Assembly (NCBI GenBank): GCA_014898425.1
Contig: RCSZ01000016.1
Coordinates: forward strand, 1,054,001-1,118,000
Length of the DNA: 64,000 nucleotides
Source of the DNA: Botryotinia globosa
Lineage: Eukaryota > Ascomycota > Leotiomycetes > Helotiales > Sclerotiniaceae
Reading direction: 5' to 3'
The translations under genes were made by a program, and so were the position numbers. The notes under the pieces were generated by a model. It was not told where the DNA came from. It ran no database searches and was given only the letters and a program-made list of their open reading frames with translations. This document shows positions 17,061 to 62,698 of the stretch, piece after piece. The stretch's first letter is position 1. Each line of letters starts with the position of its first letter.

Positions 17061-17082
17061 TTTTATTTTTTTATTTTTTTAT

Positions 17083-17420: not shown

Positions 17421-17537
17421 CTCTCCCTCTCCCTCTCCCTCTCCCTCTCCCTCTCCCTCTCCCTCTCCCTCTCCCTCTCCCTCTCCCTCTCCCTCTCCCT
17501 CTCCCTCTCCCTCTCCCTCTCCCTCTCCCTCCCTCTC
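17421..17537. repeat. Microsatellite (CCCTCT)n
   Basis: Almost 20 perfect hexamer copies. Open frames on both strands here (Ser-Pro or Gly-Glu/Gly-Arg runs) are products of the repeat. Confidence 0.97.
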
Positions 17538-18236
17538 CACATAACCCCCTCAGAAACCGACTCCACACCCATAAATTCGTATACATACCTACATACCTAC
17601 ACACCTACTTATTCATATACCTCTCTACCCATCCATCCACACCGTACCACACCGTACCAAACCACAACAAAGAAACCCGCCAAACCCCCCCTTCCCCCCC
17701 CAAAACCAGCAAAGCAAAGCAAAGCAACTATCCAAAAAGAACAAAAAAAAAACAATCATTGACCTGAAAAACGATATTGATTACCAGACACAAGAAGCAA
17801 CTCATACTAATTTAGATCTATAAATTATAAGCGTCGCCTATGTAGGAAAAGTCAGTGAGGAAGTCAGTGATACCGCTCATGAGGCGAAGATACCTACCTG
17901 TAGCATTCTTCCCCAAAAATAACACAGCAGTTCGAATTTATACTGGACTGGACGAAAGAAGCCTCGACGAATCAAGTAGACTCAAATCAAACAACAACAA
18001 ATATCACACTTCAAAACTTTCAAATATAAATTTAGACTTAACATTGTATGCACTTGATGCATCAACAGTCTAAGTACGCAAATCATTGATCAAAATGTAT
18101 CTATCGACCTAAATCGATCCCCATGGCAGCTTCCCAAAGAATATCACTGATATGACCTCCAAGACGTTATCGATTATCATAGTAGCTTCCCAAAGTGCTC
18201 CTGATTCCCTTCCTTCCTTTGTATATTTGTATCTTA

Positions 18237-39984: not shown

Positions 39985-40170
39985 ATGCGGGTTGCTTATC
40001 TGTTCCCCCGGAGTCCATTCTTGACTGACGATTACTTCGGAGTAAACTATGATCGATTGAGGGCCGTAAAGAAGAAGTATGATCCGTCTTTCACACTCTA
40101 TACAGCCACGGCGGTGGGAAGTGATGCGTCTACTTTTGAATTGGGAGAGGGTAGATTGTGCACCGCTTAA
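39985..40170 (+). pseudogene. C-terminal remnant of a berberine-bridge-type FAD oxidoreductase
   Basis: The frame reads SPFLTDDYFGVNYDRLRAVK, then KKYDPSFTLYTATAVGSDAS and GRLCTA, the typical BBE-domain end of fungal FAD-linked oxidases (a YFG-NY-RL-KKYDP pattern and a GRLC tail). No FAD-binding domain is found upstream, so this is a truncated piece. It ends about 120 bp from the copia insertion. Confidence 0.7.
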
Positions 40171-40297
40171 TTTTGCTACTTCAATGCGCGCTTATGTGGG
40201 ACGAATCGTCAAGTTTCATAATTTCAAGTTTATTTTCGGTTTAACAACTACTCGCTTCGATAGAAATTGACAATATATTCAAGAAGTCATAGCATAC

Positions 40298-40467
40298 TGT
40301 CAGGACATCGATCATATGATCAAAGAGGGCACTGTATTAACTAGTATTGCACTAGCGTTTCCCTATATATTTAGTATTTAGCTTCCTATAATTAATAATA
40401 ATCAAGAACAAATATAATTATATAGAATTAAGTACTTATACTTATATCAACCAAATTGATATCAATA
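40298..40467 (+). repeat. 5' LTR of the copia element
   Basis: 170 bp, begins TGTCAGGACATCGATC. Differences from the 3' LTR are almost all G/A or C/T. Confidence 0.92.
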
Positions 40468-42393
40468 CTAATTAGTAATATTACAAATTAAAACTTTAAA
40501 TTCTATTAAAAGTATTAGATATTTTTATATAATATTCAGAATTGATAGAAATTCTGAAAAAATTATAGAAAAGATATCATTATATTAGATATAATATATT
40601 ATCTCTTTTTATAATACTAAAAAATATATTCCGGATAATTATATTGAGAAGATATATTCAAGAAATTCAATCTTATTAAATATAACAAATCGATTTTGTA
40701 TCTATTATATATTCACTTTTATACTATATATTATACTAGGTAAAACAAAGATCTTTATTATTCTCTACATTTATAAAAGACTTTTTTATATATACAAATA
40801 TATATACATTTATAACAATTTTCGAAATACCTTTACCTATATATATAATCATATCGGAAAACAATATCACTTCAACTAAGGATATTATTAATAAGAATAT
40901 ATATATAAAGAAGAAAAAAAAAGAGTATAAGAAATAGTTCAATTTATTAAAAACAATATCAAATAATAAGAAAACTATTATTATTAATAATAAAAAGCTT
41001 ACTAAATATATCAAATTCAAATATAAATAATACAATTATAAAGATATCAATAATAATAATCTAGCAAAGATTTTTCATTATAACTTTAGAATATTCATAA
41101 TTATATAATTTACAAAAATCTATTAGATTTATATACAAAAACTATATATAATATTATATATTTAAAGAATATATCTATTAAAAACAAATATTGAAATATC
41201 TATAATTTTATTCGAATAATTTTGTAAGATTATTATTAATAAATAGATGAAAGTATAAATTCAAGAAATTCTGAAAAATATTAATATCAAAAAATCCAAA
41301 TTCAAATTTGAAATTATTTGTAAATTCATTAAAAACGATTTCAAATATATAAACGAAGATAATAAAAATAAGTATAATAAAAACAAAGATACAAAAGACC
41401 CTAATAATAGGGGGGATAATAATAATAAAAGTAATAAAGATTATAAATCCCAAAAAAATAAAATATTAATATTACATTTCAATATATAATCTCTTATTAA
41501 TTTATCAAAATTCTATATCAATAATAAGAAATACAATAGGGATAATAATAATTTCGATTTCAAACTTTCAATATTTTATAAAATTTTATAATATATAAAA
41601 ATACCTATAAATATATATTATAAAACGTTTTTGATTATACTTAAAGAAAATATATTTCAATTCTTTTATATTAATTACAGTTTATTACTATTAATATTCA
41701 AAAAGCTTTATATTTATATATAGAATAATTTTGAAAAAAATGAATATCAATAAAATATACTATCGAAATAAAACAATATTATTTTAAAATCAATTAGAAA
41801 AGAATATAGAAATAAATCATTTAATAAATGTTTTATAATTATAATCAAATAACTATATATATTATAATATTGATTTAATCTTATTATATAATAAATATTC
41901 CATTTTTATAATAAACTTATATTTGTTTATAAAGATATAGAGATATACAATCTAATTTATTTTGATTTCAAAAAAAGGTATTTGATTTAATCAATTAATT
42001 ATAACAATCCATTAATATATAAAAGAGATTATATAAAAATAAAAAGAATATAATACTATTTATTAATAAGAAATTCCATAGTAATAATAATTATAGTAAT
42101 AGTCAAAATAGTTCTAAAGATTTCAGAAATAATAATAATTTCAGAAATAATTTATATAATAAATAATAATATTTAGGTTTATTTAATCAATACAATTATT
42201 ATTGAATATACAAAAAAAAGAATATTAATTAATAAAATATTTTAAAGAAAAATAAGATAAGAATAAATGTAAATATAAAAAAAAGATCAAAAATAATAAT
42301 AATAATATATTTAATAAATATTATAATTAATAAATAATTGAATATAAGAGAGAAATTATCAATATAAAATCTAATTCAAAAACCAAAATAGAT

Positions 42394-42992
42394 TTGTTTT
42401 TCATAGATCTTGATATTGAAGATAATATAAATAAAACATTTTTTATGAATTTCGAGTTTATTAATAATCAGAAAGTATTTAATCAATTGTTATTCAATAT
42501 AATATTATATATAATAACTAGAAACTTTATTGAAACTATTTTATTTATAAAAAATATAATAAACATTTTTTATACAAATTATATAAATAAAGAATTCTTC
42601 GGTATATATATTGATATAGTATATATAAGAAAATCTATAATTGGAATTGGATAATATTATATATAGAAATAAATCTATTTAATTGAATATAATCTATTAA
42701 TAATAGAGGCTGTAAATATATATTTCGGAAAAGGAATTGTAATATCAATAAAATTATTCCGAATTGTTGTATTATTTGGAGATATTGATTTCTATATTAT
42801 AAATATTGATATTCTATTTCTATTGAGTTTTAAAGATATAGATTGTTTTAAAATATTTTATAACAATATTATTAATTAATTTATTATTTTAAAAAGTAAA
42901 TACTCTATTATTAAAAGATATAAGTATATATTTTTAATATAAAAAATGAATATAAATCAATTTATTCAAAAATCGATTTATTAGAATAATTG
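42394..42992 (+). pseudogene. Copia protease and start of GAG-pre-integrase domain
   Basis: The + frame contains a degraded retroviral-type protease (AVNIYFGKGIVISI, then FYIINIDILFLLSFKDID), which follows the fungal copia pattern of FGxGxxxSI and DTPFLLxLxDMD. It runs to the insertion site of the gypsy element in the pre-integrase region. Several Trp/Gln positions have become stops. Confidence 0.75.
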
Positions 42993-42996
42993 CTAT

Positions 42997-43237
42997 TGTG
43001 AGCGAATCTTTATACTGATCACATGATCCACTTCTGTAGCTAGTATTTATAGCCCTTTTCCTTATAGCTTAGAAAAAGCAATCAATTCCCATCCACCAAA
43101 CTTCTAATACATCTTGTAAAACACTATATAAAGTTTTCCCTTTCTCTTTTCTATTTAAAACAATACACTATAATAACTTTCTTATAATATATATAAAAAA
43201 ACTACTCTATAATCCTATCACTTTCTATTTTTTTATA
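42997..43237 (+). repeat. 5' LTR of the gypsy element
   Basis: 241 bp. Shares with the 3' LTR landmark strings such as CGAATCTTTATA, TTGTAAAACA-TATATAAAG and CTATTTAAAACAATA. Confidence 0.92.
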
Positions 43238-46200
43238 TTGATAATTTATATAGAAAAGAATATTAAAAGATTAGAAAACTATATATAAATCTAAATTCTT
43301 AAATTGTTTTAAAAAACAAAAAGTTATTAATTTAGAAAAATCAATAGAAAATAAGGGAATAAAAAACTATTTAATATTATAATAAAATCAAAGTAATAAT
43401 AATCTAATAATAAAAGAAAAGGGGGAAAAAACAAACATTCCACTCTCAAAATCGATTTATAGTTTTATACAAATCTAAATTGAAAATAAAATTGCTTTTA
43501 ATTAGATTATCTTTATTTCTCTCAAAAAATTATAAGAATAAATTATAAGAATTTTGCTATCTATAAAATTTGTAGGAATTTAAATAAAGATTTGATTTTA
43601 AAGAAAAAAGTTTTCTTTTATAAAATAAATCTAAGATTTGTTAATTAGTATTCACTTTTGTATCTAAGATTTAATAAATATTAAATTTACTTAGAATTTT
43701 CAAAATTACCTTGATTATATCTATATCTAAATGGAATTTGATTAATTTAAGAAATTCAAAAACAATCTATATCAAAATCAGAAATATTATATTATTCAAT
43801 CTAATTAAAAGGATTATTTATAAAAATAATCTTTTTATTTTTAAAAACAAATTTCCAAATATATTTTCAAAAGAAATCCAAAATTCGAATTCTTTAAAAC
43901 AAATTGCTAATTTATATTTTTGAATTTTTACAAACAAATTTGTAGTTATATAAATTTGAAAAGAAAAAATAATTTTATCAAAATTTAATAAAATTATTAA
44001 AAAAAGAATGAATAAAATAATAATTAAATCTTTATTTATATTATATTAAAGATTTTTTAAATTTTTATATAATTATTCGATTATTATAACTATTTATTAA
44101 TAAAAACGAAATCATTCAATATAATAATAAAATCTATATTATATCAATCTCCAACTTCAACAATAAATCCAAAATCCAAAATAATTATTTAATTATAGAT
44201 TCAAAATCTTCAAGTTTATTAATTAACCCTAACATTTTTAATACAAATGATTTTGAAAAGAATACTTTTAAATCAAATATTCTTTTTTTATTCAATCGAA
44301 AAATAAATAAGAGTAAAAAACCCAACAAGAATTTTAATTTAAAACTTTTGAAAAGGAATTTCAATATTTAATAACTTATTACTTTTCTAAAATACTTTTC
44401 AAGAATTCTTATACTTTTAATATTATTTTCTGAAATTACTAATATATTATGATTTAAAAATTCCAATATTATTAAATAATATAAAGATATAAAATAACTC
44501 CAATAAAACTATTATATTTCAAATAAAGATTTTCAAATACAAATCTCTCTACAAATAAATTATACACTTCGAAAAGAGATTAAAACTATAAAAAAATAAT
44601 AATCTAAAAAATAAAATTAAAAAAAATATTTCAAATCTACTTTCCTTAAGGAATATTTCAATAATAATATCCTTCAAAAAATATATTTTTATAAATATTT
44701 ATAAAAATTTATTAAAAAGTATAAATAAAAAAAAGATATTAAATATAATAATCTTGATTGTTTTATTAAATAATATAATCAAATTGTATAGTAATTAATT
44801 AAAAATAAAGTTTTAATAAAAAATAAAGTTATTGAATTATTTCTTAAAAATATATTTTTTAAAACCTCTCGAAAATATATTATTCAAATTAAATACAATA
44901 TAAAACAATTAAATATAATAAATTAAAATAAAATATTTAATTAAATAATCTAATATATTAAAAACAAATTCTAATATGTTTTTTTCAATATAAACAATAA
45001 CAAAGATTTTAATTTCAATAAATTATTGAAATCTGTTATTTTGTTTATAAAGATTTAGAATAAAACAAAAGTCTTAATAATTCAAAAAAATAATAAAATA
45101 AAAAAAATAATAAAAACTCTTGAGAATTTTATATTTATTATAAGAAAACAAATACAATTAGATTTCAAATTTAAAAAGAAAATTGAAATTTGTTAGATTT
45201 TTTTCAATTCAAAAGTAATAGAAATACTTTAGATTTCAATTTATAAATTTATATAGATTATAATATTTATTACTATCAATATTATTATTAATTTAAAAAT
45301 AATAAAAATTGTATATATAATTTATAAAAAAATATATTACAATTACAATAATAAATAATCTAATAATAAAAACTACATTCTAAAAAAAGATTATTCGATT
45401 TTTAAAGAGTATTTTAATAAAGGATTTGTATATTATAATAAATTAAAATAGTTAATATAAAAACTAATAGATGGTTTAAATAATCCTACTCTAATTATAT
45501 ATAATAATAAAATTAATCTTAGTTTAATAAAAATAATTAGATTATAAGCTTTTCAAAACAATTAATTAAAATCCTTTAAAAATAAGAAAATATTATACTT
45601 TATTAATATCAAAAAAGAATCTATCAATATTATATTAAAAAAAAAAGTATATATTATTCAAAAGTATATTAATATTATAAAAAAAATATAAAGAAGATGT
45701 GAAAAATTATTTTATAACAATTTAAATAAAGTAATTAAATTATATTCAAATACTTTTATAAAATCTATATTTTTATTTACAAATAAAATTCTTAAATTCA
45801 ATTAATAATCTATAATCAAAATATTTTTTCAAGAGTTTATATAAATTGAATTAATAAAAATCTATATTTATAATTTTGAGAATCTTATAATAAAAATTAT
45901 AATCAAAAAAATACTAGATAAAACCAAAAAGCTTAGGAAACAAATAATTCCTTAAATAATAAACAATAGTTATAAAACAATAAAAAAAATCAATTAGAAT
46001 ATTTTATTAATTATAATTTTTATTATTATAGATTTTATTATTAAAGAATACTTTAATATATAAAAAAAATAAATTATAAAAATAAATAATTTAATAAAAC
46101 TATCAATTTTTGATAGTTATATGATAAATTTGATTAATAAACTTTTTATTTTGTTTAAACTTTTAAAATAAATTAAAATTATAAAAACTTTCTATTCGAA

Positions 46201-48059
46201 TATAATCTATAATTCTATTTATATTCTTATGAAAAATAATAAAAAAGATTTTCTTTATATTAGAATATTTCTTAATAATTAAAATTCTATTAAAATAATT
46301 CTAGATTTTGATTTGATTATTAATTTAATCAATATCAATTTAATTATAAAATTCAATCTATTAATTAATCTAGTTTAGATTATTATTATTAAAATTAATC
46401 TTTTCAAAACTAATATTAGAAGTTTTTATAAGGATGTATATATATCTTTTAAAAGAATATTAAACATTATTAATTTATTTATAATAAAAAATATATATAA
46501 CAATTTATTATTTAAAATACTATAATTTATTATAAATAAAATTATATTTATATATAAAAATAGATTGTAATATATTACAATAATAAATAACAATCGAAAA
46601 AATCAAGCAAGTATTTAATGTATTAAATAAAAGATAATTATATTTTTCCAAATTTCAAATCTAAAAAACTAAAATCTGATATATCCAAAGAACAATATAT
46701 TGAAACAAATTTATACTTCTTATTAGAAAATAACTTTATTAAATTCTAACAAAATTGTTTTTTGTTTTATATAAATACTTTATATAAGAATAAAACAAAT
46801 AAGATACTTTTTTTAAATCAATCTAAAAACCTTACAAATAAAGAGCCAAAAGGGAGAAATAATTGATTAAAGAAATACAAAAAAAAAACCCTTATTTGTA
46901 ATTTTTAGAAGAATGAAAAAATTATTTGATTTTATAATTTAATAAAGAATCTAAAGATTATTGTTTAATTATAAATAAATATAAAAAAATAGATTTTGAA
47001 AAAATACTTTTTATTTATAAATAAAAACTATTATTTGTTTATTTATTAAATCAAAAAAAAACATTTGTTTTTGATTAGATATATATTGAATAAATATAAG
47101 AAGAAATAGTTTTTTTATAGAAAATACAAATTATTTTATATAAAGCTTAATAAATATCTAGATTTTTTATTTCAAAAACTTTGATTGAGATTATATTCAA
47201 AATACTTTAAGAAAGAATAGATCAAGGAGTTTTTGAATATATAAATAATCTTTATAAAAACCTATAATTTTTAATAAAAAAAAAGACTTTTAATATTTAT
47301 AAATTTATAAATACAATTATTAAACTCAATAAATATTTAATTAAAAATATAAATCTACCTTCAAATACTAATACTTTTACAAAAAACTTTATAGAATATC
47401 AAATTACTTCCCTAATCAATTTCTTTTCAGATTATAATTAGATTCCTTTAATTATAAAAAATCGCAATATAATTATCTTTCAAATACTATTTGGATTATT
47501 ATATTATATAATATTATTACAAAATACTATTAATTTTATTATCTAATTCTATAGAATTATTATAAAAATTCTGAGCGATTTAGTTTCTAAAATAACTATA
47601 TCATTTTTAAATAATATAGAAATAAAGAAATCTAAGATTGATTTCAATAATAAAGAAATTATATTTGGAATATAGAAATTTATTTTTATATATATTCAAA
47701 AGATTAATAAAATCTTGGAATATATAAAAAAAACAGAATATTCAATTAAAACGAAATCTAAATGATATTTTAATAATATAGAAATTGTAGGGTATATTAT
47801 AAAATCTAAAAAGCAAATTCTACAATAATCAAAAATCATTTGGATTATAAACTAATCTGAATCTAAGGATATTATAAAGATTTATATATTTTTAGATATA
47901 TATATATACTATTATATCTAAATCGAACAATTTATTTAAAAAGTCAAACCACTATATTATTTATTAAAAAAAAACTAGAAATTTATATAAATAAAAAAAC
48001 AAAAAAATATTATGGATTTATTAAAGATTAAATTAACCAAACCTTTTATTTTAATATTA

Positions 48060-48480
48060 TTAAATTATAGAAATACTTTAATAATTGAAATAATTATTTT
48101 AGATATAAATACTAATCTCAATAATTGGAATATAATATTAGATTAAAAATTTAATAGTAAATATATAATAATTAGATTTGAAAATAAATTATAAAATAAT
48201 ATAGAAAAAAATTATAATGTTATAAAAAGAGAATATAAAAAAATACTCAAAAATTTTTGAAAATATAAATACAATTTATATAGAATATATTTCATTCTCA
48301 AGATTAATATTAAGATTCTTATTACTTAATTAAATAGAGTAGTAATAGATTTTTTAAAAGTTTTAATAATAAAGTGGATTATATAGATTAGATTTTTTGA
48401 TTTTAAAGTTTGATATATAAAAGGAATAATATATATTATAATAAATAAACTTTTTCATAGATCAAATACTTTTATAAAAT
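48060..48480 (+). pseudogene. Gypsy RNase H domain
   Basis: Degraded reading contains EKNYNVIKREYKKILK, KYKYNLYRIYFILK and WIIWIRFFDFKV, equal to the fungal gypsy pattern with KRECK, FRYYLYGVxFxLETD and WIAWIRLFDF-VRHV. Catalytic Asp codons have mostly become Asn, as G-to-A changes give. Confidence 0.8.
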
Positions 48481-49734
48481 TTTAATAAGAAAAAACTCAA
48501 AAAAATAATATTAATAAATAGATTATTAATAAATTTAATAATATTCAAAATATTCTTATTTTATATAATTTTATTAAATTTGAATAAAGTTATATATTGA
48601 ATTTAATATATAATAAAGAAAATCAAGAAATAACTAGATATTTAATTTTATTATAAAAATCTAAAAATATAATAAAAAAAGTCTTCAGAAATTTCAAAAA
48701 AAAAGTTTTCGGATTTTGTATTTGCAATAATTATCTTTTTAAGATTGATATAAAATATTTATTTTCTAAAAAAATAATTGATAATAAAATGGAATAGATT
48801 ACTTTTATTAATAATTTATATAAAGTTTATAATTATAAAAAAATAAAAAGTATTTTCGATAAAATATTATGATTATATTATTAAATAGGGATATACAATA
48901 TTATTAAGAAATTTATTAATTCCTATTTAAACTATTAATTATAATAATCAAACCTCCAGAAAAAACCTTTATATTTAATATGAGTAAATATATATTGATA
49001 AAAATATAGATTAAATATTATATATATATCCCTAGATAATAATTACAAATATCTAATATTCCTTAAAAATAATTTATCAAAATAGATAAATGGGAAAGCC
49101 CTTTGAAATATAATTTTATAAATAATAATTATTTTTATATAATTTATTATTTATTATTATTTTATTTTCAATAAGATCTTAATAAATAATAATCCAAAAA
49201 ACAAAATATATATAATATATTTCTTAAAAAAATATAGTATTTAATAAATACAAATCTCTATATACAATTTTAAAGTAAACAATTAAATTGAATAAGATTA
49301 TAAATCTATTATTAATAAATTATTCAAAATGATAAATAAAAAAGGAGGATAGCTAAAATACCTTAATATAATATTATTTGTTAATAAAATTATAACACAC
49401 CAATCAATTAACCTTACCTTATTTTATATAATCTATAATTACTATCCGATATTATTTATTAAAACAAAATTTTATATTTAAAAAATCTTTAATTGGAAAT
49501 CAATAATAATCCAAATAGATTTATTAATATTATACTTCTGATAATTAAAAATATATAACATTGATATAAAAGAAATTATATTTTATAAAAAACATTATTA
49601 TTTAAATAAAAAAGAGTATTTCAATAAAAATAATAATATAATAAACAAAAATATCAATCTAGAAAATATTATATTCTAATATAATTTACAATCAAAAATT
49701 GATATATTATACAAAAAGAAATTTATATATCAAT

Positions 49735-49920
49735 AATTTAAACTATACCAAATAGTAACTATAAATTCTAACAAAAATATTTATACCTTGAAAAAAATAG
49801 ATAGAATCTTAATTGATAAAATCTATTCAAAATCTTATCTCAAGAAATTTATAAAAAGAAAAAGGGAATACTTATTAATTTCAAATAATAATATTAAGGG
49901 AAATAATAACTAATCAAATT
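49735..49920 (+). pseudogene. Gypsy integrase C-terminal end
   Basis: The frame reads YQIVTINSNKNIYTLKKIDR, then DKIYSKSYLKKFIKRKREYL, the YxLxxLDG...RLKxF pattern that closes fungal gypsy polyproteins. This marks the end of pol. Confidence 0.7.
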
Positions 49921-52900
49921 ATAAGGATTTATTAAAAATATTATTAAAATTATAAAAATCTAATTATATAAATTAATACTTTGATAGTTTAAAAATAATA
50001 ATTGATTATATATAAACAAATAATATATTGAAATCCCCAAATATAATTTCAAAAAATATTTATTATATATTTATAGAAATTCCAATTATTAATTTAGTAA
50101 TAAAAATAATGTTTTTTTTATACAATAAAAAAAATAATTGTTTATAAAATTCCTTTAATAAAAAAAAATGTTTATCTACCTTTATTTAGAAAAATAATTT
50201 TTCTTTTTTTTTTTCTTTTTCCAGGAGTTATTTCCTATATCTCTTTCTTTAATATTATAAAACAAAGAAAACTATTTATAAAATAAAAACACTTTTTTTT
50301 CCTTTCCCAATATTTCTATTAATCTATAATTCTTTTATTCTTTTTATTACCTTTTTTCCTAATCATTTTAATATTTTAATTTTTTATTATTATATATAAA
50401 ACAATTTCCTTTTATATTTCCTTAAGTAATCTATATAACTTTGTTAAATTTTGATAAAATTATCTTTTTTGAAAAACCCCTTCAAAATGTTTGAATAGTT
50501 TAATAACGAATTGGATTATATTATATAATATTCAAATATTTAATTACAATATATATATTATAATATAATGATAATAATTAATGATACTTAATTTTTTAAT
50601 ATATTGAAAGTTTTTGAAGTTATATAAAAACTTCTAGAAAAACAATAATATACAAAATTCATTGAATTCAATATATAAATAAAAAAATAAAAAACTAAAG
50701 TAAATATATTGATAGAAATAATTATAATTCTAATTCTATAGAATAATTTTTATATTAAAGTTTATATAATAATAAAACAAATAAAAATCGATAATAAAAT
50801 TATTCTTTTTAGAATAAAAAAATCCTGTGAATTATGGTAAAAGGTTATCAATAAAATTTATATATATTAGAACTATTTATAGAAAGGTATAATATTCGTT
50901 ACAATTTTGATTATGTTTTATAATACGAAATTTTATAATAAATTTTCTAAATTGATTAGGATTATTATTTTAGAAACTGTATTGAAATTGATTAATAAAG
51001 AATTTATATATAAACTTTTTAAAGATTTAAAATCTAGAGTTTAAGTTAATTAATATCTAATATCTTTTGAATTCAAAATTACTTTCAGAATTTTAAACAA
51101 AAAGTTTTCTAATAAATCTTTCGAATAGAATAACAAAAAAAAAAAAAAACTTGGTTTTCAATATAATATAATTGAAATACTTAAAAAAGTTAATATAGAT
51201 TATTCCAAAAATATTCTCTTTATTAAAGATTCAATTATTAAGTTTTTATAAATTCCTTTCTTTCTATTTTTGAAAAATATTTTTATAAATTTTTAAAAAT
51301 AATTAAGATTTAATTTGATAATAATAAACAAAGATATTAAATTATTTAATAAATATTTGATAAACAAAATCATATCTTGATAAGGTATCTTATTAAGAAA
51401 TGAAAATGAGGAAAATGAGGATAATAATATTAGTCAATTTAAAGTATATAAATACAGAGAAAGTGTTTTATAATTATAGGATTAGTTTTATCTATTAAAG
51501 GAAAAGTATATTGCAAAATAAATGAATTAAAGAATAATAATAATATTTATAAACAAAATGCTTGATAATCTTTATAATTATTATTTATATTAATTTGTTA
51601 GTATTCTTGGATTCAAAATTGTATATATAAATCGAAAGGATTTGTTAAAACATTTTCGGTTTTTATATAAATATTAAAATTGAATTAATAATAAATACTT
51701 TTATTAATTCAAAAAAAATATAATAGTTAATAAGAAAAGAAAAACAAAGTTTTTTGATATATTAAAATTCAAATTCATTAAGTGTAATATTATTATATTT
51801 ATAATTATTTAAATCTTTGTTATTGATTTGATTGTAATTTATAGGCTTAGAATGTATGAATTTATGAAATCCGATAAATATCTTTATTTTATTAAAAAAA
51901 TTTATATTTCTTTGATTCAAAAATCTATAAAAATATATTGTTATTATAATTATTATAAGAATATAAAACTCGGATTTGTTTATTATTGTTATTATTTCCT
52001 AATGTAATAAATTTTTAAATGGAATTTAAAAATTTGGCGAATTATTATATTATAGTATATAAATTGGGAATTTTATTTTATTTCTATTTCTTTTTTAATT
52101 ATTATTATTTAGTTTAATAAGATTTTTGATTATATATTTATATATAAAAATATAAAAGAACTTTATATTAAATATCAATTTAAATATATAGATGATTTCA
52201 TTATATATATTATTTATTTTCAATCTAAAAAGTCAAAATACAGAATAAGATATAATAGAATAAAATCAGAATTGGAATATAAAACAATATAACAAGATTT
52301 TATTATATTCATTTTAGAAATGTTTAGTAAGTTTTTCAAGAAAAATTATTTTCAGAATATTATTTCAAAAAAAAATTATATAGAATATATTCATTTGATT
52401 ATCTTGATATAGTTTATTGGAAAAACTAATTACAATTGGATATTTATAATTATAAGGAATTTTATGATATTTAGAATTAGATTTAATAATAAAGATATTA
52501 TTCTTTTTATAATATCAATTATATTATATATTATAATAAAAAGACTTTTAAGGGATGATTTAAATTTTATATTAAAAAATAAATTGAAATATTAAAATAT
52601 TAGGAATATATATTATAATTTGAAATCTATTTTCAATAAATATATTATTAATAATAGTTAATATGAAATTCCTGGATTTTTAATTAAATATTATTTAATT
52701 ATTCAAAATCCTATTGAACAAATTTTTATCAATAAGTTCCCTTGGAATAATTTGTTTATACTTAAAAAAGCTATTAGATTTTTTTTTATAAATAATAATG
52801 AATTCAATATTTAATATTAATATTATACAAAAAATACTAAGAGCTTTTTTTTACATACTTTTGAAAATACTAAGTTTATTGAAAAACATTATAAAAATAA

Positions 52901-53435
52901 ATTATGCTTTATAATCTTAAAGTAAAATCTAAAGGATAGATATAATAATAAATACTTTGAGTTCGATAAAAAAAAATAGAATAAATCAATTTCATTAAAT
53001 AGTAATAATAACAAAAATAGCTCTAACCTTAAATAAAACAATAAAGGATTTTCTAATACTTCAGAGAACAAGAAATTAAAAAGAATAATGATTTCTTTAA
53101 AAAAATAAAAACCAAAAAAAGGAAATATAAAAACCCAATTCTCCCCACTAATCCCCAAGGATTCCAAAAAGCTTATAAAAACCTAAAAGGATTTCAAATC
53201 CTTTGATTCCTTTTTAAAGAAATAAAAGAATATGTTATTAAGTTTTTGTTAATACTTAATCTTAAGATTCCACTAAAAAGCTATTTAACTTTATCAAATT
53301 TTAGTAAAGTTATTTTTCTTCTATAATATTTGTTGAATTAATTATATTAAGCAAAAACAATATATTTTTTTTTTTTTTGATTTTTTTTTTTTATATTCTT
53401 ATATCTAAATTTATTAATTAAAGCAATTAATATTT
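49921..53435. other. Extra 3' region of the gypsy element, unexplained
   Basis: About 3.5 kb between pol and the polypurine tract. It holds pyrimidine-rich blocks (50185-50220, 53360-53395), a 40-bp imperfect direct repeat (50431-50470 and 53281-53320) and only degraded short frames. It may be an extra ORF or a third nested element. Confidence 0.5.
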
Positions 53436-53450
53436 CTATATAAAAAGGAA

Positions 53451-53690
53451 TATAAACGAATCTTTATATTAATTATATAATCTATTTCTATAACTAATAT
53501 TTATAATTCTTTTTTTTATAACTTAAAAAAAACAATTAGTTTTTATTTATCAAACTTTTAATATATTTTGTAAAACATTATATAAAGCCTTTCCCTCCTC
53601 TCCTCTATTTAAAACAATATACCACAATGATTTTCCTATAATATATACAAAGGACTACTCTATGACCCTACCACCTTCTACTCTTTTACA
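53451..53690 (+). repeat. 3' LTR of the gypsy element
   Basis: 240 bp, ends TTTTACA before the CTAT target copy. It retains more C than the 5' LTR at its 3' end (ACCCTACCACCTTCTAC), so the two LTRs were mutated unevenly. Confidence 0.92.
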
Positions 53691-53694
53691 CTAT

Positions 53695-54540
53695 TTAATA
53701 ATTACAAAGTTATAATATTTATATTAATGATTTGATTATTTATTGATATAATATTTTTATAATATATTATAATAAATAAATTATAATAAAAGTAATAATA
53801 CTATTAAGCATTTTATTAAATACTATAAGTATTATTAAATGTATAATAAATCACTAGAATGTTTCAAATTCATTTTATCAAAAAACACTAAATTCAATTA
53901 TATTATTTATATTAATATTATATATATTATAAGCAATCTAGTTCTATATATTATTAATAAAACAATATATTATCAAATAACTCGATTTTTTGAAAACATT
54001 TTTGTTAAATATATATTCAACAATCTTAGAGAATATTAAATTGATATATATATTAAACTACCAAATTATATTATTTATAATATCAAAAAGAATTTTATAA
54101 ATAAAGAATTTATTCAAAATATAAAATCTATATCAATTATTATTAAGAGTATATTTATCGAAGTATATAATTCTATAAACATTATCGAAAGATATTATTA
54201 TTTATTATATCATATATATAAAATTTTAATAAAAGAATTTGAAAATAACAATTTGATTAAAATAATGGTTTTTCAAATGATAATAAAAATTGTAAATAAT
54301 ATAATGAGATTAAATAGATTTGTTTTTATATTACTAATTTATAGAATATATTTTAGATTAAATAATATTAATTTATTAATTATAATAATTATTCAATATA
54401 TAAAAACTACAAAGAAAGTTATAATAAAAGTATATCATATTCAAACTAAAAAACAAATTACAAAAATATTGAAATTAAGGAATAGACTATCTATAATATT
54501 TATTCTTACATTATTATTAAATTCAGAAGTTTTAATATAA
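53695..54540 (+). pseudogene. Copia pre-integrase zinc region and integrase
   Basis: The copia frame resumes after the inserted element: a degraded FGHPS-like stretch (53731 on), KHFIKYYKYY-MYNKSLECFK (zinc-binding HHCC type), NYIIYINIIYI, and FENIFVKYIFNNLREY followed by the integrase core with IDIYIKLPNYI, KKNFINKEF and IEVYNSINIIERYY. The latter equals the DAGKNF and VEAHxSxGxVERYH motifs; the catalytic Asp codon before GKNF is now Asn. Confidence 0.8.
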
Positions 54541-54899
54541 AAAAAGGGAAAAGATAATAATATATTAGGCAAATAGATTAAACTATATATTTTGATTGAA
54601 ATAGATAGGAAAATATATAAAATAAAATTTTCCAATAAATCAATTAAATTCCAATCTATATCTATACAACCTTTTTATATAAAACCTGAAAGAATAAAAT
54701 TGAAAAACGATTATATAAATAATAGTGATAGTAATACTATAATTATTGATATATTATATATAGAAATATTATAATCTCAAATATTATTATTAGCAATACA
54801 ATCAGATATATAACTATATTATCATATAAAAAGCAATTTGATAAAAATAATTAATATAATAAATATTGATAAAGAATATATTACAAAATTATTATAATT

Positions 54900-55640
54900 A
54901 ATTATATTTTTATAAGATAATATATCTATAAAATATATAAAATTGTAATATAAAGAAATTGATGAACTAATAAAGAATAGAGTTTTTAAAATTGTCTCAA
55001 AAAATAGTATTCCATTTAGAATAAGATTCTTCAAATTACACTTTATTAATAAAATAAAAAAAGAAGATATTAATAAAATATATACAAAATCACAATTAAT
55101 GATTCAAATATATCAAAACAAGAATAAAATCATTATTTTAACACAATCACCCACTATTCAATATATTAATTAATATATTATTTTTGTATTTGCTATTATT
55201 CTATAAATATCAAATAAATATATTTAAATCTATTTATAGAATATTATATAAGTATACATTTAATCGATTACAACTTTGAATAGATTTATTTATATAGAAA
55301 TATCAAAAGAGATTGGATTTAAAAACAGATATATTTTATATATTATAAAACCCTTATATAGTATTTTTGAAACAGGAAATTATTGATTTGAAATCTATTA
55401 TAATCATTATAAAAACAAACTAAATATAATATAATCTACATATAGCCCTTGCCTACTCTACTCAACCAATAGCATTGACATTATAAAGCTTTAAATTAAT
55501 AATATTTTTATAATTATAAATAAAGGATTTGTATATTTAAAACAAAAGCAATTAAATAAGATCAACTTTATAGCCAAAAATAGAAAACAATTTATAAAAA
55601 ACTATTCATTTAAATTTAATAATTATTTAATTATTCTCAA
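54900..55640 (+). pseudogene. Copia reverse transcriptase
   Basis: Readable pieces: SRxxVQxYNDxxK-like KSQLMIQIYQNKNKIIIL, TQSPTIQYIN, and KPLYSIFETGNY followed by a stop where Trp is expected, then STYSPCLLY. These are the fungal copia RT landmarks. Confidence 0.8.
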
Positions 55641-55939
55641 AAATAATAAGATTTATCTCGATTAAAAGAAACAATATAATAATATCAGAATAATTATAAC
55701 CAGGAATATCGATATATATAAAATAAAGAGAAAAGTTCGGAAAAATATTATTTCAAAGAATTAATATATTATTCAATATATAAAAGAAATATATATTACA
55801 ATTATATATCAATCAAAAGTATTTTACCATTTTTTTATTGTTGTCCAGATAATAAATTCGAAAAAAGAAAATATAAATAAGCTCAATAAAATCATTAAAT
55901 AATAAATAAATAATCTGAAAAAAGAATTTATATTTGTAT

Positions 55940-56420
55940 CTCTAAATATGGATTTTATTAAATTAATTGTTTTCACTAATATATCATTCATTAATAATAC
56001 TGATTTATCATTACAAATTGGTTATATAATCTACTTAATAAATAAATACAATAATATTAATATTATATATTGAATATTAATTAAATATAAGAGAATTATT
56101 AAAAATATATTAGCTTTTAAGCTATATATATTGATTCTAGGCTTCAATATTGAAATCGCTATTAAAGATATTATTAATATTATTTTCAAGCCTAAAAAAC
56201 TAATACTATTTATATTTTGTACAAACTCAAAGTTATTATATAATCTATTGATTAAATTCGACACAAACATAGAAAAACGATTTCTAATCGATATTATAGT
56301 TTTAAAACAATACTATAAGAATAAAGAAATTACGGAGATTAAATAAATTAATAAAAAATCGAATTCTATAAACGCTATAACCAAAAACAATATATATTAA
56401 GTATTAAAAGATTTAATTGA
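55940..56420 (+). pseudogene. Copia RNase H
   Basis: Reads LIVFTNISFINNTDLSLQIG (family: VFTDASFANNxDLSSQIG), ILAFKLYILILGFNIEIAIK and LFIFCTNSKLLYNLLIKFDT, then EKRFLIDIIVLKQYYKNKEI. Asp of TDAS and TDSK became Asn, as RIP would give. Confidence 0.85.
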
Positions 56421-56564
56421 TATTAATAAAATAATTATTAAAATTATATATTAAATAGAAAAGGGATAGTAATATAAAAGCTAGATAGAGTTAAAAGAAT
56501 ATTATATTTAAAATAAATTATAAACTAAAACACATAATTATATTTATTTTTAGAGAATTATTAA

Positions 56565-56734
56565 TATTAGAATATCGATTATATAATCAAAAAGAGCATT
56601 GTATTAATTAGTATTGCATTAGCGCTTCCCTATATATTTAATATCTAGTTTTTTATAATTAATAATAATCAAGAATAAATACAATCATATAGGACTAAGT
56701 ACTTATATTTATATCAATCAAGTTGATATTAACA
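56565..56734 (+). repeat. 3' LTR of the copia element
   Basis: 170 bp, begins TATTAGAATATCGATT, the RIP-type variant of the 5' LTR start, and ends TTAACA. Confidence 0.92.
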
Positions 56735-56739
56735 TATAC

Positions 56740-57332
56740 TTTTGCTCAATACTCGTGATTCAGCTTGATAAATCTATTTGTGCTATTCTACGAGCGATAG
56801 ATTCTATCCATGGAACTGATCTTCTATAGTATCTATGCGCACTAGTTATCTTCTTCCATTCACATAAGCAGACTTTGCGCCGCTTGACAGCTTTTCCGGA
56901 CCTCTACTCCCGGACAAGAGCTTTAGAATCCAGCAGTTGGCTCCACTTTTTCCACAACATATAGTATCTGCTGCACGAACATAACATTTTAGACGGGGAT
57001 CGGTTTGATTGTATGATGTGGCTTGCTAGAGGCGATTGTATAATACATGTGTACTGTAACTCAACCTTTTTCCCAGACAAATTCGTTTTGTTGAAGGCAT
57101 AGTTTTGTTTACTCTGCAATCCAGTATTCTTCTATATCAAAACTTAATTTTGATAATCGTGCCATCGATTAACATCTAACGAATATCACCGAAACTAAAT
57201 TTTTAGAATTTGCGAATTCTTGAGGTATTTTGTACAGAACTACTTTAACCACATTTATGAATTACGTTGATACTTAGACCTTAATTGACTTATCCAGCAA
57301 TACAACCACAAAGCAGTGTTCAATCTCTCAAG
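56740..57332. other. Unique-looking flank between copia and MITE
   Basis: Base composition returns to normal at once after the copia target copy. No supported gene. Confidence 0.5.
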
Positions 57333-58126
57333 CAATGTAGGCAATAGTATACTATAGTGAAACTGTAGTGTATATTAGCATATTGATATTACAGCTAATA
57401 TATTTAGAAAGGAGGTTATATCACTCTTGTATATATTCATTTATCTAAAAATACTGATATTGTGAGCAATATACTGAAATACTAGAATTAATTATAAAGT
57501 TTTTATTCTTATTTAAATTGGGTTAGAAATAGGGGATTTCATTTTAGTTTGAAGTGAGGAATGGAATTTTATTATTTAATTTGAATAGGAATGAAAATAT
57601 TATAATGAATTCCAGTATTTCAGTATATTATTAATAGGGTTGAATAATTAAATAATATTGAATACCTTTAATAGTATTGAATTCTATGACATATATATAG
57701 GTATGTATTTCGAAAAAAATCGATACGTACTACTAAACTAATCTATATCCCCTAGACCGCTGGAAATGAGCTCCGTCGCTTAACAGGGTCTTATTGATCA
57801 ATTAGATTATTAAGATTCCTTGAATTTAATCTAATATTTATATTTATTTTTTGATATAAAATTCAATCAATATTTTTTCTACATCAAAATTTCTAATATA
57901 ATAATATATATTAATTCTCAATCTTTTCTTTTTTTTTGAAATTATAAAAAATCAATATTTGAAATCAAAATTTAATAATATAAAAAATATAATTGAAAAT
58001 CCATTAAAATAACTATTCTATCCAATAAGACTTTATTATTCAAAGTATATCACACGAATCATTTTCGGAGCCCATTTCCAGCGGTCTAGGGGATACGAAT
58101 TACGGGAAATACTATTGCCTACACTG
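57333..58126. mobile_element. hAT-type MITE, copy 2, carrying a nested MITE
   Basis: Ends are CAATGTAGGCAATAGTAT (one G-to-A change from copy 1) and ATACTATTGCCTACACTG, with 8-bp targets CTCTCAAG at 57325-57332 and 58127-58134. Without the nested 346-bp insert it is about 446 bp, close to copy 1 (468 bp), and the interior aligns to it (for example GGAGGTTATA and CAGTATTTCAGTATATT-type strings). Confidence 0.92.
57748..58093. mobile_element. Nested TA-flanked (Tc1/mariner-like) MITE
   Basis: The 346-bp insert starts TCCCCTAGACCGCTGGAAAT and ends with its near-exact inverse at 58093, between TA dinucleotides (57746-57747, 58094-58095). Comparison with the uninterrupted copy at 36820 shows the empty site (CTAAACTAA ... 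ATACGAA), which proves the insertion. The interior is AT-rich and non-coding. Confidence 0.9.
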
Positions 58127-58481: not shown

Positions 58482-60561
58482 CTATAATTTACTCTCCCTC
58501 CCCTTTTCCCCTTCCCCTTCTAACTCACAAACCAGTACCCCCACCCCCACATCCTCCCCTTCCTCTCCCTCCTCCCACCGATCTTCCTCCTCATTCCCAA
58601 AAACCCACTTCGCAACCCCATCCCTCTGGCTCCTAACCTCAACTTCCATTTTCATCTGTCTGATCACACAAATAGTCTGACCGGCTACTATCTGATCTCC
58701 TTTCTCGACGCAGGTTTCGATGAGTTTCCCCGGGAAGGGTGTTGTTATGTGGTTTGGATTTTTAGGGTTGCCGAGACGATGGGAAGATTGTTGGGAGGTG
58801 GGAGTAGAGGAGGATGAGGTGAGGGAGAGTTTGTAGGGAGTCGATTTTCTGTTAGTGGAGGATGGAGAAGTGAATAGGATGTTGGCTTTGAGAGAGGAAG
58901 GAAAGTTGTTGCTGAGGATGCGGCTTATTTGCATATGGTATGGTATCGGCGCCGAATTCCCGGATTTTGCATTCGTATTGGAGGATTCATCGGGACTAAG
59001 TTCAATATTCCACGCATCTCTCGGACGGAACACCACACTCGATGAAGATGGTAATGTCGGTAATGAACTCGTTGATACCGGTACTGCGGAATTTTTCAAG
59101 CCCTCGCTTATCTTCTTGGCGGATCTGAGTAACACCGGTAAATTCATCTCCAACCATCTTGTATCGCACTTTTGCTTCTTAAACGCATCACTGTCGATAA
59201 TTGCTCTTAATAAATCCAAGTTAGTTTCAATGCCAATGATATATGTATCATCTAATGCTCGTTTAGCTTTCGCGACGATATCTTGCCAGGTAGGTGCGGT
59301 GATAATGAGCTTTGCCAATAGACTATCGAAATCTGTGCCGATGATCGCAGGTCTTGAAGGATGCAGATGAGTATCTACTCGAACGCTATTGCCTGAGGGA
59401 AAATAGAAAGATGAGATCTTCCCGGGACTGAGTGAGAAATTTTGAGAGGGGGATTCAGCTGTGATGCGGAGTTGCAGGGAGTGAATTTGAGGTGGTGTTA
59501 ATGGGGAAGAAGGGAGAGATTGTAGGAGCAGGGATGAGAGGGGATATCCTTGAGCAAGAAGAAGTTGGATTCTAACGAGATCGATACCAGAGGCCAGAGA
59601 TTCGGTAATAGTATGTTCGACTTGTAAACGTGGATTGATTTCCAGGAAATAGAATTCGGGTTGTGATTGCCGAACCAGAAATTCGAATGTTCCAAGCGAG
59701 TAGTAATTCACCTTCCTGGCCATCCTCAACGCACTTTCAATAACCTTCTCGACAGCTCTCCTGTCCGCAATCGAACAAGGAGCAAACTCCATCACTTTTT
59801 GAAACCGCCTCTGGATACTACACTCCCTCTCCCAGAGATGTCTTACCCCTCCTTTGCCGTCGCCAACAATTTGCACTTCTACATGTCTATACCCATCTAC
59901 AGCAGCTTTCTCCGCAAAAACCTTCTTGCTAGGACTTTCTCTCAATGCTGCTTTTAACATACCTTCTAACTCATCTTCTTTTGTCACAATCCTAATACCA
60001 CGACCTCCACCTCCATCTACTGCTTTGATGATAATAGGATAACCAACCTCTGATGCAAATTCCTGGAGTTGAGTCACATCATCTGTTGGGACTTGGAGGG
60101 CCGGGAGAATAGGAACGTGACATTCCTGTGCAAGGTTTCTCGCCATCAATTTATCACCTGTTCTTTCTAAAATCTGGAATCCAGGTCCGATAACAACCGC
60201 GTTAGCTTCTCTCCACATTCTTTCTGCAAACTCGGCAGATTCGGATAGGAATCCATAGCCTGAATGAATAGTATCGATATTGTATTTCTGTACAATAGAT
60301 ATCAGAGTCGAGATATCGAGATACGAAGATGGAGATGGAAGTTGAATGGCATGGGCTGAGTTGAGAGTGTGTGATGAGTCGTTGGTGGTATAAACGGTGT
60401 AGGTTTCTATGTTCAATTCGCGTGCTGTGGATAGAATACGCGTTGCGATTTCTCCTCTTTTGGGAATTAGTTTGGGGGGAGATCAGAGAGGGTTGGTGAC
60501 TGACTACCTACCTGTTTGCTATGAGAAGACGCTTGATAGGGCGGAAGGGTTGTTGGGACAT
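58482..60561 (-). CDS. Biotin-dependent acyl-CoA carboxylase, alpha subunit, with C-terminal SKL
   Basis: Exons 60561-60512 and 60456-58482 join in frame (NR|GEIATRIL) to 674 residues. Biotin carboxylase domain: IANRGEIATRIL at the N-terminus, HSGYGFLSESAEFAE, the ATP-grasp loop KAVDGGGGRGIRIV, RHVEVQIVGDGKGG, ECSIQRRFQKVMEFAP and YFLEINPRLQVEHT. A BCCP domain at the C-end carries the biotinyl lysine (about residue 619) in RQMKMEVEV. This architecture equals MCC/PCC/geranyl-CoA carboxylase alpha. Unlike mitochondrial MCC alpha there is no evident presequence: the catalytic domain begins by residue 10 (MSQQPFRPIKRLL). The last residues are RESKL, so the protein ends in the canonical peroxisomal signal SKL, after an acidic Glu/Gly-rich linker. 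It is divergent from the beta subunit gene, 300 bp away. The substrate is not readable. Confidence 0.92.
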
Positions 60562-60861
60562 TTTCTGAGCTCTTTTCAGGGATCTGGAATTATATCGAGC
60601 TGTATTCTCTCTGATCGAAAATGAAAGAAAAACGAATTGTATAGTTGAAAGTATTGAAGCCTCATCAATGTTCGAGATATGGCCGAGCTCCAAAGTGTGG
60701 TTCAGCCTCCCCACAAAACACGGGGCGGGGAGTAAGCCGAGGTCCAAATCATGTAGGTTAGATCATTAGATCTTCATCAACAAGCTCTCGAATGTTTACT
60801 TCTACTTATACAACTTGGTATCAAAGAATGAAATCTGAAGACCAAATATCACTTCATCATC
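60562..60861. promoter_or_regulatory. Bidirectional promoter of the acyl-CoA carboxylase subunit genes
   Basis: Only 300 bp separate the two start codons, so expression of the subunits is probably coupled. It contains CCGAGG at 60737-60742 (the reverse of CCTCGG, the FarA/FarB core) and a GGGGCGGGG box at 60722-60730. Confidence 0.6.
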
Positions 60862-62698
60862 ATGACAAACGATAGCAAAGAGGAAAACTCTTCAAAAATC
60901 GCGTCAGATCGAATATCTCAAGTCGCCGGTCATATCTCTAATACATCCAGTAAACGTCGAGGGCCCAAAACAAAAAATGATCTCCCAGCCGACTATTCAG
61001 ATATTCTCGGGACGATATCCTCTTTGCGAAATATAGCCCAAACACCTGATCTCTCAAATAAAGGATACATCCGACAAAAGCAAGCTGGTAAACTCTGGGT
61101 CCGAGAACGAGTTCTTCAGTTACTCGACACAGATAGTTTTCGCGAAGTAGGTTCTATTTCTGGGACTGTTTCATGGAAAAAACTAGACCCGTCGGAAAGT
61201 AAAGGGAAGAGAGAAGAGCCGATTTCTTATATACCAAGTAATAATGTACAAGGATTTGGCTTATTGAGAGGAAGGAAAATATTATTTACAGCGGACGATT
61301 TTAGTATTCGTGCTGGACATGCAGATGGTGCATTGACGGAAAAAACGATTTATATGGAAAAATTGGCTGTTGCGTTGAGATTACCTATTATCAAATTGGT
61401 GGATGGCTCTTCGGGAGGAGGGTCTGTGACAACGATTAGGAAAGAGGGGTTTTCTTATATACCGCCCATGCCATCTTTTAAACATGTGGTCGAACAGTTG
61501 AATATGGGGATTCCCAATCTAGGAGCGGTGTTAGGGCCGGCTATTGGGCTTGGAGCTGCGAGAGTTGTTTCATGTCACTTCTCTGTGATGGCTGCGGATG
61601 TTGGAGCGTTGTTCAATGCTGGACCAAAAGTTGTTGCGGGTGAGTGTATTGTATTGGCGGAAGGAAAATGCTAATCATCAACAGGTGCAACTTTTGAGGA
61701 AGGACTCACTTTTACAGATCTTGGCGGCCCGAGTATGCACTGTACCAATGGCACCATTGATAATATGGCAGGAAATGAACAAGAATGTTTTGAACAATTG
61801 AGGACGGTTTTGAGCTACTTACCAAACTCTGGTGCCTCTCTACCTCCAGTTCTAAACACTGAAGACCCAGCTGATCGACTTTGCGAAAGTTTAAGAACGA
61901 TCATTCCACGCCGAAAAGCGAGAATGTATGATCCTAGAAAAATAATAAAGACTGTGGTCGATGCAGAAAGTTGGTTCGAAATTGGAGCACTTTGGGGAAC
62001 TACTGCAATTGTTGGTCTTGCCAGACTTTCTGGTAGACCCGTTGGAATTATATCTATAAATTGTGAGATCAATGCTGGAGCACTTGATGCTGCTGGAAGT
62101 CAAAAGATCACTCGACATCTCAAATTCTGCGATATTTTCAATATCCCTATACTCCAATTTGTCGATATTCCAGGGTATGCAATTGGAACCGTTGCAGAAC
62201 GAGCAGCGACGATGAGGCATGGGGTAGCACTTGGGACAACATATTATTCTACAACAACTCCAGTCTTTAGCGTTGTGACGAGAAAAGCGTACGGGGTAGC
62301 TGGTGGAATCATGCTGGATTGTAGAGATCCACGCTTTCGAGTGGCGTGGCCAAGTGGAGAATGGGGAAGTCTTCCATTAGATGGAGGTATTGAAGTTGGA
62401 CATGCTGCAGAATTGAAAGCAGCAGAAGCCAACGGAAAACTAGAGGAAAGATATAAAGAGTTGGAAGAAGAATATACTCGATTGATGAATCCAGTCAGGA
62501 CAGCCAATGCATTTGGAGTGGAAGAGATTATAGATCCTGCTGTTACAAGGCAAATAGTTTGTGAATGGTTGAAGCACGTGTGAGTACCTCTTCCTCTAAT
62601 GTTCGTGGTGTTGACTAATGTCATGTAGATATGAGGAGTTATTACCCATCCGACTTTTGGATCGTGCGAATGGGAACATTCATCCAGTCTTTTACTAA
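60862..62698 (+). CDS. Acyl-CoA carboxylase, beta (carboxyltransferase) subunit, with a PTS2-like N-terminus
   Basis: Exons 60862-61639, 61685-62579 and 62629-62698 give 580 residues; both introns are GT-AG (45 and 49 nt), and the last exon adds YEELLPIRLLDRANGNIHPV plus FY. The N-half has LLDTDSFREVGSISG, DDFSIRAGHADGALTEK and LVDGSSGGGSV; the C-half has AESWFEIGALWG, FVDIPGYAIGTVAERAATMR, RKAYGVAGGIMLD and WPSGEWGSLPLDGGIEVGHA. It transfers the carboxyl group from biotin of the alpha subunit to an acyl-CoA. The LVDGSSGGGSV segment replaces the SGGANLPRQ signature of methylcrotonyl-CoA carboxylase beta, so it is not a simple MCC copy. Residues 17-25 read RISQVAGHI, which fits the PTS2 pattern R-[LVI]-x5-H-[LAF] except for Ile in the last place. 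Together with SKL on the alpha subunit this suggests a peroxisomal enzyme. Confidence 0.92.

Follow-up and report, generated by a model that had tools for sequence, protein, structure and literature searches.

At the right end of a 64,000-nucleotide stretch of the 45.7-Mb genome of Botryotinia globosa (contig RCSZ01000016.1, positions 1,054,001 to 1,118,000; hereafter the window), two divergent genes very likely encode a conserved peroxisomal acyl-coenzyme A (acyl-CoA) carboxylase, the predicted beta subunit of which belongs to a third carboxyltransferase lineage. The explanation favored here, to which a probability of roughly 0.8 is given, is a two-subunit biotin-dependent acyl-CoA carboxylase that would work in the peroxisome matrix. 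The two subunits, their domains, their import signals and the conservation of these signals can be read from the sequence, as can the separateness of the beta subunit from the sampled references for methylcrotonyl-CoA carboxylase (MCC), propionyl-CoA carboxylase (PCC) and acetyl-CoA carboxylase (ACC). Eukaryotic biotin-dependent carboxylases have been described from mitochondria, the cytosol and plastids. The alpha gene runs leftward and the beta gene rightward from a gap of 300 bp (positions are those of the window):

58482..60561, minus strand: alpha gene, biotin carboxylase plus biotin carboxyl carrier protein (BCCP), 674 residues (translation, Pfam); exon 1 60561-60512, intron 60511-60457, exon 2 60456-58482
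58484-58482, minus strand: alpha stop codon
58485..58493, minus strand: SKL codons, a peroxisomal targeting signal of type 1 (PTS1) at the alpha C-terminus (translation)
58650..58652, minus strand: Lys619 within QMKM, the expected biotin attachment site (translation)
60562..60861, no strand: divergent intergenic region between the start codons, 300 bp
60862..62698, plus strand: beta gene, carboxyltransferase, 580 residues; exons 60862-61639, 61685-62579 and 62629-62698
60910..60936, plus strand: RISQVAGHI, a nonapeptide of the peroxisomal targeting signal type 2 (PTS2) kind, beta residues 17-25 (translation)
62290..62307, plus strand: YGVAGG, beta residues 462-467, aligned with GGAY(D/I), a segment of the PCC/ACC acyl pocket, with a shift by one residue possible
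62347..62388, plus strand: WPSGEWGSLPLDGG, signature of the third carboxyltransferase lineage (alignment, motif counts)

All three introns of the pair have GT...AG ends. Alpha carries PF00289, PF02786, PF02785 and PF00364 (biotin carboxylase N-terminal, ATP-grasp and C-terminal domains, and biotinyl domain), and beta carries the carboxyltransferase domain PF01039. The pair therefore has the parts of a biotin-dependent acyl-CoA carboxylase, i.e., a biotin carboxylase and a BCCP with MKM plus a PF01039 carboxyltransferase, and is likely to be a working enzyme. Lys619 is, from knowledge of the family, presumably the biotinylated residue, and MKM lies within the final 140 residues of 119 of the 120 listed alpha relatives, the exception being the short model P0131. 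Alpha is 95% identical to entry P0121 of Botrytis tulipae, with the same first 30 residues as annotated there, and beta is 98% identical to P0001 of the same species. The annotated Botrytis and Sclerotinia relatives mostly match the ends of the gene models, with two shorter Botrytis alpha models that lack the tail. Consecutive locus tags for alpha and beta recur elsewhere (BTUL_0069g00130/140, EYC84_005094/5095 and EG329_001494/1495), and both genes apparently share a contig in at least 35 cases (36 beta and 35 alpha rows), which is a minimum and not a rate because the rows were picked from tables by eye.

The initial annotation had read SKL at the end of alpha and RISQVAGHI at beta residues 17-25, and both are confirmed by translation of the gene models. 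Its central proposal, a PTS1 on one carboxylase subunit and a PTS2-type signal on the other, is supported by the comparison of orthologues that it had suggested. Relatives were collected at E <= 1e-50 (7,989 for alpha and 1,934 for beta, from about 8,000 candidates scored), and the best 120 of each were analysed; those with names are mostly Leotiomycetes and Dothideomycetes, plus one Blastomyces alpha. The SKL-type tail, taken as [KR]L, ends 118 of the 120 alpha relatives (106 of 108 distinct 40-residue tails), compared to 0.03% of the positions just upstream. Most frequent are AKL (34), SKL (27), ARL (23), ERL (13, all Parastagonospora nodorum by name), NRL (6), SRL (5) and PKL (3), followed by WKL and VKL (2 each) and by FVS, HTI, VRL, TRL and GKL (1 each). 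Alpha itself ends in SKL, and the narrower PTS1 form [SAC][KRH][LM] is found in 89 of the 120. Over the 108 distinct tails, the three final columns have entropies of 0.15, 1.07 and 1.96 bits, versus 2.29-3.31 bits in the preceding 17. The two relatives without [KR]L, P0126 (B. fragariae, 632 residues) and P0131 (B. cinerea, 556 residues), are both shorter models, and they look like gene-model errors because another B. cinerea entry, P0124, ends in SKL. Among Pex5 cargo proteins of Histoplasma, according to the accessible part of one study, AKL, SKL and ARL are the tails seen most often, and PKL and HKL suffice for import (PMC13343957).

Beta ends in VFY and therefore has no PTS1; indeed, a strict PTS1 occurs at the C-terminus of none of its 120 best relatives. 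Instead, 119 of these contain an R-x6-H-type nonapeptide, R[LI]xQ[VIL]xx[HQ][LAVIM] (H or Q allowed), within the first 60 residues. The looser form [RK][LVIQ]x5[HQ][LAVIMF] is likewise present in 119, versus a mean of 3.5 and a maximum of 9 in shuffled N-termini (200 rounds). A single loose nonapeptide is unremarkable against such shuffles, but its presence in 119 of 120 relatives is beyond chance. The model of the sole relative without it, P0065, begins inside the protein. An alignment was made of 59 of the 120 fungal betas: R17, Q20 and H24 are the same in every row, and the N-terminal extension that holds them is otherwise variable. P0022, a relative outside this alignment, has Q in place of H. 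The last residue of the nonapeptide is I in 62, V in 42, L in 14 and M in one. The PTS2 consensus is given as (R/K)(L/V/I)x5(H/Q)(L/A) in the available text of one paper (PMC3709128); RISQVAGHI differs from it at the last position, and a full fit is seen in 14 of 120 relatives, or in 119 if I, V or M is allowed there. In the accessible part of the Histoplasma study, the N-terminal 40 residues of the thiolase Pot1, with RLSQVTSHL, carry a reporter into peroxisomes via Pex7 (PMC13343957).

Because of these signals and their conservation, a peroxisomal location of the putative enzyme is very likely. By eye, neither alpha nor beta starts with a mitochondrial-looking presequence. Orthologues with a presequence and without SKL, or an upstream in-frame exon, had been named beforehand as signs against peroxisomal import. 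As far as the tails and the immediate upstream region are concerned, the proposal stood: among the 120 listed alpha relatives, those without [KR]L are limited to the two short models, and there is no in-frame ATG between the alpha start and the nearest upstream stop. The N-termini were less uniform, as the gene models of several relatives have other or longer ones (e.g., P0129, P0132, P0145, P0159 and P0027); the motif NRGE lies at most 60 residues from the N-terminus in 101 of 120 alpha models.

Judged by sequence, the window carboxylase and the MCC of this genome are separate gene pairs. Three PF01039 loci were found in the genome search: a frame of 2,171 residues on C4, taken for ACC, the MCC beta gene on C5, and the window beta. 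The MCC beta begins with MASLRASRILPNLSRKSLRPIYHKASSIHFRTIATY, which resembles a mitochondrial presequence, and the MCC alpha, also on C5, begins with the mitochondrial-looking MHSATRSRVLARALLPSFSRRYATTP (both judged by eye). An isovaleryl-CoA-dehydrogenase-like gene, named by eye, adjoins this MCC beta.

Carboxyltransferases of this family have been divided into a PCC/ACC lineage, acting on the alpha-carbon, and a lineage of MCC and geranyl-CoA carboxylase (GCC), acting on the gamma-carbon, according to the part of the article available (Jurado et al., 2015; PMC4673880). Against chains in the PDB, the ten best scores of the window beta are 206-217 bits, all to the PCC/ACC kind, versus 126 bits to MCC (3u9r), 113 to GCC (5ikl) and 108 to human MCC; some chains of the alpha-carbon kind score barely above MCC, i.e., AccD6 with 132 bits and the long-chain enzyme 4rcn with 129 bits. 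No relatives turned up when prokaryote genomes were scanned with an alignment of fungal rows alone. With a mixed alignment, 11 relatives at 35-41% identity appeared, followed by PCC-like genes at 30-34% (best 80 of 571 matches). In a tree of 53 rows (12 of the 120 fungal relatives plus the window beta, 34 rows from 33 of the 80 prokaryote loci, four MCC-type rows and two PCC/ACC chains), the fungal betas and the 11 bacterial relatives form a clade with support 100/98, next to MCC (100/100) and PCC/ACC (100/100). For one row, L051_57, the program flagged a long branch. This row and eight PCC-side rows were removed and seven further bacterial copies added; the resulting quick tree of 51 rows kept the fungal and bacterial clade with a Shimodaira-Hasegawa-like support (SH-aLRT) of 99, the seven further copies fell into the third lineage, and a warning of meeting long branches persisted. 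A careful tree of 29 rows (5 of 13 fungal, 11 of 18 bacterial third-lineage, 4 of 4 MCC and 9 of 16 PCC/ACC rows of the 51-row set) gave 100/100 for the clade. Constraining the fungal betas with either MCC or PCC/ACC changed the log-likelihood by -43, and the approximately unbiased test rejected both groupings (p-AU 0.0009 for MCC and 0.0013 for PCC/ACC), with constrained groups that had been named after the first tree was seen.

Beta thus groups apart from the four MCC-type rows in three trees, and it falls outside PCC/ACC by tree, though this kind is nearest by fold and score. That beta belongs to a lineage separate from the sampled MCC and PCC/ACC references is well supported by these alignments and trees. 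The PCC/ACC rows include two of known identity, the others being genes from bacteria and archaea that fall in this clade; the trees leave out GCC (447 bits against the Botrytis MCC beta), 12S transcarboxylase, long-chain acyl-CoA carboxylase, AccD4/5/6 and glutaconyl-CoA decarboxylase. The bacterial rows of the third lineage are one side of a branch at 90/73 only.

Two segments of beta go together with this separation. WPSGxWGSLPxxGG is present in 119 of the 120 listed fungal relatives (P0054 has N for S), and WP[ST]xxxGS[LMI]xxxGG in all ten bacterial rows of alignment A4; the corresponding region reads AWPTAQIAVMG in PCC 6ybp and MWPNARIGVMG in MCC 3u9r. In the acyl pocket, an Asp or Ile sets the acyl preference of PCC/ACC, and mutants of this residue are named in PDB titles. 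It aligns with Gly467 of beta, in an alignment that may shift by one. The fold was compared by Foldseek, with the model of the 98% identical B. tulipae protein: the best 50 of 719 PDB matches are all PCC, ACC, 12S, long-chain, alkylmalonyl or single-chain carboxylases, and none is MCC or GCC. Because of the confidence of the model, this gives mild support only for a PCC-like architecture of beta.

For alpha, the biotin carboxylase scores 276-279 bits against PCC/MCC alpha chains versus 310-319 bits against pyruvate carboxylase and ACC chains. The NCBIfam model of pyruvate carboxylase gives 504 bits versus a cut-off of 965, and the HMGL-like carboxyltransferase domain of that enzyme is absent; the name pyruvate carboxylase is therefore wrong for this protein of 674 residues without the third domain.

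Several observations weigh against a peroxisomal carboxylase of a third lineage. The residue at position -3 is a less usual one in 29 of the 118 alpha tails with [KR]L. In the beta nonapeptide, I or V replaces the consensus L or A at the end in 104 of 119 relatives, and the strict nine-position PTS2 form is seen in just 10 of 120. The beta model is of limited confidence, with a mean predicted local distance difference test score (pLDDT) of 67.5 and a predicted template modelling score (pTM) of 0.68. Automatic database names for many relatives are mitochondrial propionyl-CoA carboxylase beta and pyruvate carboxylase. Finally, a biotin carboxylase gene adjoins just one of the 11 bacterial relatives first found (some flanks being short), so the bacterial members of the lineage may have a different function. 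No recurrent partner gene was seen around the bacterial copies by a simple gene caller that missed many genes, chiefly at loci of lower GC content. Their neighbors include enoyl-CoA hydratases (L145), a CoA-transferase of family III (L149) and amidases (L053 and L143), and are otherwise unrelated genes. In four of seven genomes (G002, G003, G004 and G006; L050, L051, L052 and L056), at least three matches exceed 600 bits to the model of fungal and bacterial sequences.

Elsewhere in the window, two further genes were recognized:

206-2440, minus strand: AtuA homologue, full-length, 630 residues, PF07287 and PF23544; ends in LLG, no PTS1
4249-5517, plus strand: CoA-transferase family III gene adjoining AtuA; frame ends in EIVV, no PTS1

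The AtuA protein matches EAF00_010917 of Botryotinia globosa with 100% identity, a single copy was found in the genome, and the names of its 120 best relatives are for the most part those of fungi; we know of no role for fungal AtuA relatives. A terpene-utilisation cluster of AtuA and the carboxylase was considered and rejected as a coincidence, since the two are 56 kb apart and unlinked in six other species, picked by eye and all outside Botrytis. The tags are distant in Mollisiaceae sp. (carboxylase EG329_001494/1495 versus AtuA 005849) and Coleophoma crateriformis (BP5796_06356 versus 12010); different listed contigs carry the genes in Acephala, Aulographum, Lophiotrema and Phlyctema. No obvious partner genes were seen in the flanks of the carboxylase pair; a small PMP3-like gene (by eye) lies to its right. 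The pair is an island of normal composition between AT-rich blocks, of about 17 kb on the left (window about 40000-58000, GC 12-26%) and at L042 on the right (GC 18%), which may reflect repeat-induced mutation of transposons. The intergenic region has a single CCGAGG at 60737, and CCTCGG/CCGAGG occurs 12 times in the 64 kb; CCTCGG is a fatty-acid response element, and the match is too weak for use here. Other features of the window are low-complexity frames with FYIFIFLY repeats at 16760-17350 (plus strand) and a strong GC skew of -0.67 at 17001-18000.

Among the other explanations, the least improbable is a strict peroxisomal PCC (or ACC), producing methylmalonyl- or malonyl-CoA from products of beta-oxidation. 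Among solved structures, ACC/PCC beta chains are the nearest in sequence and fold (32-33% identity to the two aligned), and the database names point the same way. Nonetheless, this explanation is unlikely: the joint grouping is rejected in the constrained trees, Gly467 stands where PCC/ACC have their specificity residue, and a search of the genome for methylmalonyl-CoA mutase, with a control that matched in 8 of 14 genomes, found none, a result at odds with the propionate route of bacteria and animals.

The initial annotation had favored carboxylation of methyl-blocked, methylcrotonyl- or geranyl-type acyl-CoA, which corresponds to a relocated enzyme of the MCC/GCC type, carboxylating the gamma-carbon of methyl-branched enoyl-CoAs in peroxisomes during acyclic terpenoid or leucine-type catabolism. 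The AtuA homologue and the CoA-transferase in the same window would fit such a route, as would five frames of the enoyl-CoA hydratase family elsewhere in the genome that end in SKL (L015, L016 and L028), SKI (L020) or HKL (L023), in an unspliced reading. Peroxisomal acyl-CoA chemistry looks rich in this fungus because of these frames, and nothing was found among the genes that ties any of them to the window carboxylase. The MCC/GCC proposal, however, did not hold up and is now improbable: beta scores far lower against MCC and GCC than against the ten best chains of the PCC/ACC kind, grouping it with MCC is rejected, AtuA is unlinked in the six other species compared, and the one frame taken by eye for 3-hydroxy-3-methylglutaryl-CoA lyase ends in SRK. 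Slightly more improbable still is that the terminal motifs are unused, kept for other reasons in a cytosolic or mitochondrial enzyme. This would agree with the looser choice of residue that most relatives show at the end of the PTS2, but signals of two unrelated kinds, one per subunit and each conserved amid variable neighbors, argue against it, as do N-termini that, unlike those of the MCC pair, do not look mitochondrial by eye.

For the preferred explanation, a peroxisomal carboxylase of the third lineage, we infer import, biotinylation, assembly, activity and substrate as follows. Pex5 would recognize the PTS1 of alpha, and Pex7 the PTS2 of beta; the halves would thus be imported separately, or partly piggy-backed, and assembled inside the peroxisome. 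Biotinylation of alpha on Lys619 would probably precede import, because peroxisomes take up folded proteins. The biotin carboxylase domain of alpha would then form carboxybiotin from ATP and bicarbonate, and beta would transfer the carboxyl group to an acyl-CoA. As a weakly held first guess, the reaction might be carboxylation, at the alpha-carbon, of an acyl-CoA that peroxisomes produce or process, because beta appears to have a PCC-like architecture. More broadly, and tentatively, a lineage widespread in bacteria might provide filamentous fungi with a peroxisomal carboxylase that has a substrate outside the use of MCC/GCC and PCC/ACC, and CO2 fixation on acyl-CoA might be routine in their peroxisomes.

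Reportedly, going by the titles of two papers from 2011, part of fungal biotin synthesis takes place in peroxisomes. If the explanation is true, a biotin- and ATP-dependent carboxylation would be placed in this very organelle, the database names of many proteins would be corrected, and a bacterial carboxyltransferase lineage for which no function was found would gain a first handle. No description of a fungal peroxisomal carboxylase was found in the titles and viewable text of papers listed in searches of an open-access library, with subscription papers and supplements out of reach. The accessible text of the Histoplasma paper mentions methylcrotonyl-CoA and pyruvate carboxylases solely as endogenous biotin proteins (PMC13343957), the supplement of a Magnaporthe study contains 65 putative PTS2 proteins, according to the part available (PMC3237427), and a Penicillium microbody proteome is cited in the available text of PMC3709128.

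Compared to known systems, the window pair resembles PCC and actinobacterial ACC (6ybp, 7w5u) in its two-subunit alpha/beta layout, the PF01039 beta and the PCC/ACC-like fold matches, but differs by 32-33% identity, a separate clade, altered acyl-pocket and WPSGxWGSLP segments, and the peroxisomal signals. With MCC/GCC (3u9r, 8j4z, 5ikl) it has the alpha and beta domain layout in common, whereas its beta lies outside the MCC clade with a much lower score, and the mitochondrial-looking MCC pair is a separate one in the same genome. Uncharacterized bacterial carboxyltransferases (Hyphomonas, Dehalococcoidia, Holophagales, gammaproteobacteria and others) are like the fungal beta in clade and in the WP[ST]xxxGS motif; they differ in that a biotin carboxylase gene adjoins just one of the 11 first found, and in the three or more matches above 600 bits in four of seven genomes. 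The use of different import receptors within a single pathway has a parallel in the siderophore enzymes SidI, SidH and SidF, as described in the available text (PMC3709128), which are separate enzymes of a pathway, whereas here the two signals would serve two subunits of one carboxylase.

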